From NCBI GenBank assembly GCA_013214545.1, contig JABSQB010000009.1, positions 1-64,000 on the forward strand: a DNA stretch of 64,000 nt, in the 5' to 3' direction. The notes below the pieces were generated by a model. That model was not told where the DNA came from. It ran no database searches and saw nothing but the letters and a program-made list of their open reading frames with translations. Origin of the DNA: Henriciella sp. (GTDB taxonomy: Bacteria; Pseudomonadota; Alphaproteobacteria; Caulobacterales; Hyphomonadaceae). Positions 31,028 through 42,727 of the stretch are shown piece by piece. A program made the position numbers and the translations under genes. Numbering within the stretch: the first letter of the stretch is position 1; the number at the start of each line of letters is the position of its first letter.

Positions 31028-31270
31028 TTAATCGACCAGTTCAACCCGGTAGCTTTCAATCACCGTATTGGCGAGCAGCTTCTCGCACATGTCTTTGACC
31101 CGCGCTTCGGCTTCTGCCTGCGATACCCCGTCGAGATCGAGCTCAATCACTTTGCCAATCCGGGCACCGGAGACTTCATTAAATCCCATGCGACCGAGCG
31201 AGTCGGCCACAGCCTTGCCCTGTGGATCAAGGACGCCAGGTTTCAGACCAACATGGACAATGGCTTTCAT
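31028..31270 (-). CDS. purS: phosphoribosylformylglycinamidine synthase subunit PurS
   Basis: 80 aa; VGLKPGVLDPQGKAVADSLGRMGFNEVSGARIGKVIELDL...MCEKLLANTVIESYRVEL. Confidence 0.93.
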   Translation of the reverse strand: MKAIVHVGLKPGVLDPQGKAVADSLGRMGFNEVSGARIGKVIELDLDGVSQAEAEARVKDMCEKLLANTVIESYRVELVD

Positions 31271-31322: not shown

Positions 31323-32033
31323 CTATCGGAAGACAAGATACGCGATCAATGCAGCAAGCCCTGCAACGCCGGCGGCAGCGTATGGCAGCATCTGCAGGCG
31401 CTTGAACATGCCGATGCGGTTTTGAAAGTCTGCACGATCATTGACGTTCGGAAATTCAGTGACGGGCACGGGCTTCCCGAGGAAGGTGCACAACGGCTCC
31501 CAGCCTTCTTTTGGATGAAAGACCAGTAAGCGGTCATCGGAGAATGCCGCTTTGACATCAGCTTCATGCTGCTGGAACACAAGCCGCGCGGCGTCCTTGT
31601 CGTCCAGGCCGCCGCCGAACAGGCGGTCCCAGATCGTCCCAAACGTCATCTGCTTGATTTTCCGCACCATCGGAATGAGCGTCATCCAACCAGGAATATC
31701 GCGGCTGACCGGCCAGATCGTTTCCGTCGCGCTTTGATACCAGCTGTCAAAACTACGCGTGGTCAGAATGATTTTGGCATCGGGATAGTAAGCGGCGAGT
31801 TCGCGCCAATAGGCTGAAGATGGAAAATCGACGCTGGCCTGAAAGCCCTCGAACACTGCGTCCCAATCGGGATCTTCGCCCTGGGATATACGATGCCACA
31901 TATCCAGCTGTTTGGCGTTCGGCATGACCTCCATCATGTGATGGCATTTGTCATAGCCAAGCTGTTCCAGTGCCGCCTTCATGGACAACGTTCAGGTGCG
32001 CCCGAACCCGGCGCCGATTACTTGCAAAGCCAT
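31323..32033 (-). pseudogene. sulfotransferase family protein interrupted by an in-frame TGA at codon 14
   Basis: ATG at 32033 with GGGAGGACAAT SD; reads MALQVIGAGFGRT-TGA-TLSMKAALEQLGYDKCHHMMEV..., continuing in frame to 31323. Confidence 0.8.
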
Positions 32034-32057
32034 ATTGTCCTCCCTTAAGGCGGGAGG

Positions 32058-32828
32058 CTACTTGTTAGCGCCAGAAAAGTCGACGATTTCAGCGCCTTGC
32101 GCGTTTTCTTTGATGATACCAAGACGCCGCGCCACTTCGGCATAGGCTTCCGTCACGCCGCCAAGATCCCGGCGGAAGCGGTCCTTGTCGAGCTTTTCAT
32201 TGGTCTCCAGGTCCCAGAGCCGGCAACTGTCGGGGCTGATCTCATCAGCGAGGATGACGCGCTGCATGTCATTCTCGAAGAACCGGCCAAACTCAAGTTT
32301 GAAGTCCACCAGCTTGATGCCAACCGCAGCAAACAGGCCGGACATGAAATCATTGATCCGCAGAGACAGGGCGATCAGCTCGTCCATCTCATGCGGCTGG
32401 GCCCAGCCAAAGGCTGCGATGTGTTCTTCAGCAATCAGCGGGTCGCCGAGCTTGTCATCCTTGAGGCAAAACTCGACAATTGCCCGCGGCAGCTGCGTGC
32501 CTTCTTCGATGCCGAGACGCTTGGACATGGTGCCAGCGGCAACGTTGCGAACGATCACTTCGAGCGGGATGATCTCCACTTTCTTGATCAATTGCTCGCG
32601 CATGTTCAGACGCTTGATGAAGTGATTGGGAATTCCAACCCCGCCCAGGCGGGTCATGATGAATTCCGAAATGCGATTGTTCAGAACGCCTTTGCCGTCG
32701 AGCACAGCTTTCTTCTCGGCGTTAAACGCGGTCGCATCGTCCTTGAAATACTGGATCAGGGTGTTTGGCTCTGGTCCTTCATACAGAATCTTCGCCTTGC
32801 CTTCGTAAATCATACGCTTGCGTGACAT
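32058..32828 (-). CDS. purC: phosphoribosylaminoimidazolesuccinocarboxamide synthase
   Basis: [83 protein letters not shown]. Confidence 0.97.
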
Positions 32829-33016
32829 CGCGCTATCCCTCTCGCCGTTTGGCTCTTTGGCTGACTGCGACAAGGGCCGACTCAGTCAGCCCTACCCGTA
32901 AGGCGCTCCCCTTACGCCAATCGCGGCGATTAGGCAAAAGGCTTCTTGCACCCGCCCCCTGATCGACCCTATATCAGCCTCGATACGAGCAATTCTCCGA
33001 TAAGGGACTTACATAC

Positions 33017-39766: not shown

Positions 39767-40762
39767 TTAAAGTACGCTGGATAGCAGCGGCTTTCCATCT
39801 ATGAAGTTCTCGACGTTCGATTGGGCCAGCTGCGCTTGCGAGAAGAGCGTTTCAAAGGTCGCGCCGCCCTGATGCGGGGTCAAAATGACGTTCGGAACGT
39901 CGGCCCAGCGGGCGCTATTCGTTGGTTCAGGGTCAAATACATCCAAGGCCGCCCCGCCAATTCGGTTGGATTTCAGCGCCTCAATCAACGCGTCCTCATC
40001 AACGACACTGCCGCGAGAGACATTCACGAGCACGCCATCCGCGCCAAGGCGGTCGAGGATTCTGTCATTGATCAGATGGCGTGTTGTATCGTCCGGACGA
40101 CAACAGATGACCAGACCTCGGCATTGATCCGCCAGGTCTTCGAGCGAAGCAACATAAGGCGTTTCGATTTCTGGCTTGGGACGAGGTCCCCACCATCTCA
40201 CGTCAACGCCGAATGGCGTCAATCGTGCGAGTACCTCTTTACCGATCGACCCGAGACCGACAATCCCCACCGGCATATTGCGGATCGAGTGGCGCAGAGG
40301 CGGCGCGGCACCGACCCACTGATCCGTCATGATGTAGTCTTGCGTCTGAGGAATACGCAGGAGCAAAGATGTCATAAGGGCGACAGCGAGATCGGCGACA
40401 TCACCTGAATTCATACCTGGGGCGTTGGTGACCGCTATCCCGCGAGAGCGACATTCATCGAGATCGATATTACTGAATCCCGCCGACACGGATGCGACCA
40501 TTTTGAGGTTCGGGAATTTCGCCAGTGTCGACTTGTCGAGCTTTTCGATGCTGGCCGACAACAGAACATCCACATCTGCGCCGCGCGTCGCGATGGTGTT
40601 CTCGACGTCTCCCTCGGTGTCCAACCAGTTCCATCGTTCCGGACGGTTCGGGAATAGCGTGTGCATCTCTGAATGCATGGCGAGGACGGTAGCGGCGTGG
40701 GTCATGAACGCAGTCTCGATTGGAATATAAAAGAAAGGCGCGCGCTCGCTTGGATCGCTCAT
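39767..40762 (-). CDS. D-2-hydroxyacid dehydrogenase
   Basis: PVGIVGLGSIGKEVLARLTPFGVDVRWWG; NVSRGSVVDEDALIEALKSNRIGGAALDVF; alternative ATG at 40705. Confidence 0.9.
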   Translation of the reverse strand: MSDPSERAPFFYIPIETAFMTHAATVLAMHSEMHTLFPNRPERWNWLDTEGDVENTIATRGADVDVLLSASIEKLDKSTLAKFPNLKMVASVSAGFSNIDLDECRSRGIAVTNAPGMNSGDVADLAVALMTSLLLRIPQTQDYIMTDQWVGAAPPLRHSIRNMPVGIVGLGSIGKEVLARLTPFGVDVRWWGPRPKPEIETPYVASLEDLADQCRGLVICCRPDDTTRHLINDRILDRLGADGVLVNVSRGSVVDEDALIEALKSNRIGGAALDVFDPEPTNSARWADVPNVILTPHQGGATFETLFSQAQLAQSNVENFIDGKPLLSSVL

Positions 40763-40793
40763 CTCGAGCGCGCAGATGGATTGTGGGATCGAG

Positions 40794-41969
40794 CTAGATG
40801 CTCAAATCCAGAGCATTGTAATCGTGAAGCGAAGCTTTCGCGTCTTCATTCCACTCGTACGACAACCCTTGATCGACAAAAGGTTGGTACTGATACGGCG
40901 TCTCATTCGGGAAACGCTTGCGCCGGGCGTCGATACCGAAGCCAATGACTTCAGAGCGCTTGGCGATGAGATCCTCATCAAAGACCTGGACGGCGCTGTG
41001 CGTACCCGCGCCGGTGACACCGAGGACTGAGCTGCGGCGGTGGAAGCCCATATTGACTGTGATGCGCGGTTCAAAGCCCGTATTCGCGAAGGACCCATGC
41101 ACCAGCTGGCGATTGCACATCACCACATCGCCTGCGTCGCAGACTAATGGGACGGTGCCCTCGATCCGCTCGCTGCCGGACTCTTCAACCAGTTTCTTGA
41201 TATCGACTTTACCAAGCTTGTGGCTGCCCGGCAGAACCCAGACGCCATTCACCGCTGTGCTACCATAGACCTGGGCCATGAAGTTGAAGCCGTGGATGCC
41301 ATCATCAAAATCTTCGCTGTCCCAATGGGTCGTGCCGTCCTGGTGCCAGGACACGGCCGCACCGATCCCCGGTTCTTTGATAAACAGGCTCTCATTGAAC
41401 GGCGCGAAGTCTTTGCCATTGATGTCTTCAGCGACTTTCAGCAATTGCGGATGACCGTAAACACGCAAACAGGTTTCAGAGAACTGCAAGGAACCTAGCA
41501 GAATGAACGGCGCGGCAGCAGGTGCGTCATCGGCCGCCTTTGGCTCCAACAGTTTCACCTGATGGCGCCCATTTGCGAGGGTAGAGCCACCGAGAGGATC
41601 GCCCAGCGGTTTTGACCAGACGAGTGTCGTGGTTTCGCAATCGGCTCCGAGAGCTGGTGCGCCATCTGCTGTCAGCTTTTCGCCCGGTCCGGCGGGGAAC
41701 CGCTTTTTCATCTCGGCAAGGTCCTGCTTGATGTCATCCAGCTCATCTTGATGCAGGACGCCTGTGAACACGTAGAACCCATATTTTTTGTAGGCGTCGA
41801 CGATGTGTTTCGCGAGATCACCATTTGCGTCGAACTCTATCGGACCGCGATTGTCCAACGCCATCGCGCGCTTGTGTCCGGAGATCAGATATTCCCGCAT
41901 CGCATCGGCATCATCACCATAGTGAGCTGCGCAGGCATCGATGGAATCCATGTAGTTAGGTTCAGACAT
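40794..41969 (-). CDS. phytanoyl-CoA dioxygenase (PhyH) family protein
   Basis: AVSWHQDGTTHWDSEDF (HxD), LPGSHKLGKVD, DVVMCNRQLVHGSFANTGFEPRITVNMGF. Confidence 0.88.
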   Translation of the reverse strand: MSEPNYMDSIDACAAHYGDDADAMREYLISGHKRAMALDNRGPIEFDANGDLAKHIVDAYKKYGFYVFTGVLHQDELDDIKQDLAEMKKRFPAGPGEKLTADGAPALGADCETTTLVWSKPLGDPLGGSTLANGRHQVKLLEPKAADDAPAAAPFILLGSLQFSETCLRVYGHPQLLKVAEDINGKDFAPFNESLFIKEPGIGAAVSWHQDGTTHWDSEDFDDGIHGFNFMAQVYGSTAVNGVWVLPGSHKLGKVDIKKLVEESGSERIEGTVPLVCDAGDVVMCNRQLVHGSFANTGFEPRITVNMGFHRRSSVLGVTGAGTHSAVQVFDEDLIAKRSEVIGFGIDARRKRFPNETPYQYQPFVDQGLSYEWNEDAKASLHDYNALDLSI

Positions 41970-41988
41970 GAGCGAATCCTCCCTTCGC

Positions 41989-42020
41989 TTTAACATTGTT
42001 TAAATTTAAACATCGTTTAA
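41989..42020. promoter_or_regulatory. two tandem imperfect palindromes between PhyH and TetR genes (putative TetR operators)
   Basis: TTTAACATTGTTTAA (41989-42003) and TTAAACATCGTTTAA (42006-42020). Confidence 0.6.
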
Positions 42021-42058
42021 TTCTTGTGTCAATCCACAAATCGACCTAAGAACTCTGT

Positions 42059-42727
42059 ATGGCTGTTGAGACTCTTGGTTCACGCGAAAGCACGCGCTCA
42101 AAGAACATGGCGAAACGTCGGGAGACCATCCTGCGCGAAGCCCGCACGCTTATTGCAGATGAGGGCTTTGAGGCTTTGAAGATTCGAGACCTCGCGGCGC
42201 GCGCAGGTCTGACCGTGCCGACGATTTACAATCTGGTGGGTGGTAAAAACGAAATCCTGGCCGTGATCATAGAAGAAATGGTGGTGCAACTTCGCGCGAT
42301 CCAGAACGCGGCAGACATTGATCCGGTCGAGGAGTCCTTTGCAAAACTGATCAACGATTTGGCAGATCACTTTGCCACGGATGAAGCCTTCTTTCGGGCC
42401 GCTTTTATCGCCGGCGACCGAAGCGGACTTTTCGAGCAAAGCTCCGGTGAAGGAATCTTCGCACACTTCGTCCAACAACCAATCGAAGCCTGTGCTCGGG
42501 CCGTGGAAGAGGGACTCCTGCGCGGTCAGATTTCGCCCGCGGTGCTCGGGCCGCAGATCTATGGCTGTTATCGCCTCGCGAGACAGGATTGGGCCAATGG
42601 GTATTTTGATTTGGATGGATTTAGAAAACAGGCACTCATTGGCGTCTTCCTGTGCCTGGCATCAGACGCAAAACCTGCATTCCGCGAACGCTTGATGGAT
42701 AGAATTGCAAGCCTTTCGAACGGCTAG
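42059..42727 (+). CDS. TetR/AcrR family transcriptional regulator
   Basis: RRETILREARTLIADEGFEALKIRDLAARAGLTVPTIYNLVGGKNEILAVI. Confidence 0.93.
   Translation: MAVETLGSRESTRSKNMAKRRETILREARTLIADEGFEALKIRDLAARAGLTVPTIYNLVGGKNEILAVIIEEMVVQLRAIQNAADIDPVEESFAKLINDLADHFATDEAFFRAAFIAGDRSGLFEQSSGEGIFAHFVQQPIEACARAVEEGLLRGQISPAVLGPQIYGCYRLARQDWANGYFDLDGFRKQALIGVFLCLASDAKPAFRERLMDRIASLSNG

Follow-up and report, generated by a model that had tools for sequence, protein, structure and literature searches.

A sulfotransferase gene that lies between purC and purS in the window (the whole 64,000-nucleotide stretch of Henriciella sp. DNA that was analysed here) is probably a recent nonsense pseudogene; we put the probability of this reading at about 0.75. 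Its 5'-phosphosulfate-binding loop, GxGRTGT in consensus, is interrupted by an in-frame TGA. We propose that the gene, which is carried at the purC-purS locus in part of the genus, would have had its codon 14, which belongs to the PAPS-binding loop, mutated to TGA. Ribosomes from the original ATG would stop after 13 residues; a product restarted at TTG 31988 or ATG 31982 would not contain the phosphosulfate-binding loop and should be inactive; and the UGA would not be read as selenocysteine in spite of the cell's machinery for it, no SECIS element following it. Three points here are inferred: the base belongs to the genome and is no consensus error, the mutation happened recently, and the product has no activity. 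The call depends on one base, and with no second lesion present in the sequence decay itself is not seen. The features concerned are as follows.

31326..32033, minus strand: probable remnant of a Sulfotransfer_4 (PAPS-dependent sulfotransferase-like) gene, 236 codons from the ATG to the last sense codon across the TGA, with a hydrophobic C-terminal segment (Pfam PF17784; alignment with orthologues along the whole frame).
31992..31994, minus strand: in-frame TGA, codon 14, in the 5'-phosphosulfate-binding loop; Gly or Ala in about 40 distinct other loci (sequence and homologue comparison).
31995..32033, minus strand: N-terminal stub MALQVIGAGFGRT, 13 codons, the first half of the PAPS-binding loop (sequence; conserved in relatives).
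32038..32044, minus strand: putative ribosome-binding site GGGAGGA of the original start (sequence; similar GGGAGG or GGGGGA upstream of many orthologues).
31323..31988, minus strand: open reading frame expected from an automatic caller, with a TTG start, 221 amino acids, no Shine-Dalgarno sequence and no phosphosulfate-binding loop (ORF list; Pfam match from profile position 13).
32058..32873, minus strand: purC (SAICAR synthetase), the upstream neighbour (PF01259).
31028..31270, minus strand: purS, the downstream neighbour (PF02700).

Read on the minus strand from 32033, the codons are ATG GCT TTG CAA GTA ATC GGC GCC GGG TTC GGG CGC ACC TGA ACG TTG TCC ATG AAG, that is, MALQVIGAGFGRT, the TGA at 31994-31992, and then TLSMKAALEQLGY. 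The minus strand directly 3' of the TGA encodes TLSMKAALEQLGYDKCHHMMEV in the same frame, which stays open to 31326 (the last sense codon) and is terminated by a TAG that ends at 31323. Sulfotransferase homology is present on both sides of the TGA in this one frame (Pfam and orthologue comparison); the part after the TGA matches PF17784 (Sulfotransfer_4) with an E value of 5e-59 over profile positions 13-215, and the 13 codons before it align in register with the N-termini of the orthologues, so this is not a chance frame. The preliminary description had placed a Shine-Dalgarno sequence before the upstream ATG, and GGGAGGA is found there; it had also warned that the ORF track starts after the stop and thereby hides a lost loop, which is borne out by the TTG at 31988 and by a PF17784 match that begins only at position 13. 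At its other end (window 31326-31400) the frame encodes a hydrophobic stretch, YAAAGVAGLAALIAYLVF; close orthologues have a similar tail, and this tail suggests a C-terminal membrane anchor.

The window's genome falls in a genus whose public members are named Henriciella, Hyphomonas or Hyphomonadaceae bacterium, and it holds one homologue of the sulfotransferase gene, to which the nearest five orthologues are 77-82% identical. Codon 14 is Gly or Ala (GGN or GCN) in every homologue in which it was read, at about 40 distinct loci in addition to the window's, and is a stop only in the window's genome; its context is GRTGT in close relatives and GRTAT or GRNAT in more distant sphingomonad copies. 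The orthologues of close relatives have GGN at this codon and Met or Leu starts at the same place, upstream of the site. A TGA is one base from GGA, as had been proposed before relatives were compared, and GGA is the codon present at the site in genome G010 and others. The alternative that relatives start downstream and do not have the GRTGT motif fails; all of the close relatives aligned have both the motif and the upstream start, so the original observation of an in-frame TGA at the conserved Gly stands. In a search of 105 genomes of the family, 68 have a sulfotransferase match, the best full-length orthologues are free of stops except in the window's genome, and only that genome has a full-length orthologue that is interrupted by a stop close to the N-terminus. 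A TGA in the match from genome G100 was considered as a second broken copy and rejected, since the homologue there is shorter and ends normally at that codon; among paralogues that contain TAA or TAG, codon 14 is Gly where it was read (loci L028-L030).

The rest of the frame gives no sign of decay. Pairwise dN/dS values between the window copy and its relatives (0.05-0.13) are close to those among the relatives (0.06-0.11), with dS near saturation, so selection appears to have held the remainder of the gene until recently. In an analysis of six close orthologues the change from Gly 14 to stop is the one place where the window copy departs from a column that shows no variation among the 15 others, and neither comparison reveals relaxed constraint or a second lesion in this frame. 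An otherwise intact and constrained frame implies one of two things: the stop arose very recently, or it is a base-call error. Such an error is the main rival explanation, with a true Gly codon and an intact gene, but we consider it clearly less likely than a real mutation. It agrees with the single-base distance from the GGA used at this site elsewhere, with the intactness and normal constraint of the remaining gene, and with the draft state of the assembly (138 contigs, 3.57 Mb). On the other hand, the estimates for the genome are 99.98% completeness and 0.06% contamination, and a comparison with G015, whose copy is the closest among the relatives, shows no further conserved gene of the window to be broken, so errors must be rare locally. 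An apparent frameshift at window 15650 was rejected, as it is intergenic. About 3 kb of the window (39767-42727) have no counterpart at the corresponding position in G015; judged by eye, they contain a 2-hydroxyacid dehydrogenase, a phytanoyl-CoA dioxygenase-like gene and a TetR-like regulator.

The history of the locus also bears on this choice. In 11 congeners purC and purS are adjacent with no sulfotransferase gene between them, and in another species of the genus, G007, the orthologue at the same locus (L024 1178-1887) is broken by an independent frameshift. By these sequence comparisons the gene is dispensable in the genus. On a purC+purS tree, many of whose nodes are weakly supported, absences are interspersed with presences, which suggests that the gene has been lost repeatedly. 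Where a gene is so often lost or broken, a real lesion is unsurprising, and it is this dispensability and the scattered losses that lead us to weight a real, recent nonsense mutation above an error.

Could a shortened enzyme still be made? The TTG at 31988 and the ATG at 31982 lie just past the stop (3 and 9 bases after it), so that termination-reinitiation is conceivable, and the downstream frame is conserved. No Shine-Dalgarno sequence precedes either codon, however, and the restarted protein would be without the PAPS-binding loop that is kept by all homologues read. The closest solved relatives, 9kf1 and 8y9p, likewise keep the 5'-phosphosulfate loop in the region aligned with the intact G024 orthologue, which was used as the query. 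From the known mechanism of the family, a restart product should not bind PAPS, and we regard a functional truncated protein as very improbable.

An in-frame TGA might also be recoded, and this genome has what is required to do so. On contig C64, selA, selB and selC lie in a row and form a complete selenocysteine system, whose tRNA-Sec has a TCA anticodon confirmed by ARAGORN; selA scores above the curated cut-off in 13 of the 61 genomes examined, a set of 13 that includes the window's genome and consists mostly of congeners. A genuine selenoprotein gene of the UGSC family (NF041046) with an in-frame TGA lies within a few kilobases, at L118 17715, and gives an E value of 6e-51 when Cys is written for U. 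The order in this region (L118 12341-19901, contig C64) is selA-selB-selC, a thioredoxin-like gene, the UGSC-family selenoprotein and a NADH dehydrogenase-SelD-like frame, the last named by eye. The search for selB and selC that the preliminary description had called for thus kept recoding alive rather than closing it, and selenocysteine could not be dismissed on the ground of missing machinery; the matter turned on the SECIS.

The UGSC gene supplies the standard for such an element. The 57 nt from its TGA are identical in eight genomes, compared with 48-83% identity in windows clear of the element (ungapped misalignment may contribute to the lowest of these values, which come from far downstream). 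Its lowest-energy fold has a 6-bp stem capped by the apical loop GUA, at a distance of 19 nt from the UGA, and in G036 both sides of one pair of the stem are changed (CGTGCA/TGCACG to CATGCA/TGCATG). The published bacterial model requires an apical loop of 3-9 nt with G in its first two positions, 16-37 nt after the UGA, on a stem of at least 4 bp (PMC13188914), and the UGSC control gene fits this model with its lowest-energy structure. That this hairpin is the SECIS of the clade is well supported by these sequence features.

Nothing like it follows the sulfotransferase TGA. The 57 nt downstream of it are 80.5% identical among the six close orthologues, with no peak over the rest of the gene. 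A hairpin that fits the model is available only in a structure 4.6 kcal/mol less stable than the lowest-energy one; 150 of the gene's 206 codon positions give an equal or better result, and relatives that encode Gly at the site have better model-fitting hairpins than the window's genome. The first 47 nt after the TGA fold less well than most shuffled sequences (z +0.79). One hairpin 34-76 nt downstream (z -2.3) was considered as a SECIS and set aside, as about 50 nt separate its apical loop from the UGA, more than the published range of 16-37 nt allows. A search of Rfam near the gene returned a chance snoRNA match only. Homologues with Cys exist for almost all selenoproteins (PMC9312934), and those of the sulfotransferase have Gly or Ala at the site, never Cys; the TGA is not conserved in relatives, and a phosphate-binding loop offers no obvious redox rationale for selenocysteine. 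No sulfotransferase family is named in the main texts of the selenoproteome literature searched. Because no SECIS follows it, the TGA is presumably not read as selenocysteine, and on this ground, together with the Gly/Ala homologues and the uniqueness of the TGA, we reject Sec decoding in spite of the full machinery; a selenoprotein sulfotransferase is hardly credible. The search for a SECIS-like structure closes the question of recoding as far as sequence allows, and the ranking first suggested (pseudogene, then error, with recoding least likely) is reasonable and holds. Decoding of the UGA in the PAPS-binding loop as Sec or another residue by means of an element unlike the UGSC SECIS seems to us just as remote, but if true it would yield the first selenoprotein sulfotransferase.

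Two other ways of reading through the stop involve the tRNAs. No tRNA-Gly with a UCA anticodon was found; the sole UCA tRNA found in the genome is tRNA-Sec (selC), in a list that may miss genes in unassembled repeats, which makes a Gly suppressor improbable. Where other pattern matches for such a suppressor fall within tRNA genes, these are Leu-CAA and Glu-UUC. Leaky reading of UGA occurs in bacteria generally, and some enzyme might be kept by low-level readthrough by a near-cognate or suppressor tRNA, but nothing specific to this was found here, tRNA-Sec again being the only candidate with that anticodon, and a TGA unique to this genome gives no sign of selection for readthrough; we give this explanation almost no credence.

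A recent nonsense pseudogene is an ordinary finding: a single base change in a gene that can be dispensed with, and thus one more young pseudogene. It does warrant a pseudogene note, since automatic annotation would give a 221-residue sulfotransferase without its cofactor loop. It also indicates that an in-frame TGA in a selenocysteine-decoding genome should be judged against the organism's own proven SECIS, and not by the presence of selB and selC.

The window copy shares its frame, its gene neighbours and its hydrophobic C-terminal tail with the PF17784 orthologues at purC-purS in Henriciella and related Hyphomonadaceae, and differs from them in having TGA where they have the Gly of GRTGT. 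The G007 orthologue is, like it, a broken copy at purC-purS, but there the lesion is a mid-gene frameshift and the Gly codon is intact, whereas in the window the stop is early. With the UGSC-family selenoprotein the window sulfotransferase has in common an in-frame TGA in an open, conserved frame of a Sec-decoding genome; the UGSC gene, however, has a conserved 57-nt stretch, a SECIS hairpin with a GUA loop and membership in a published selenoprotein family, and the sulfotransferase has none of the three.
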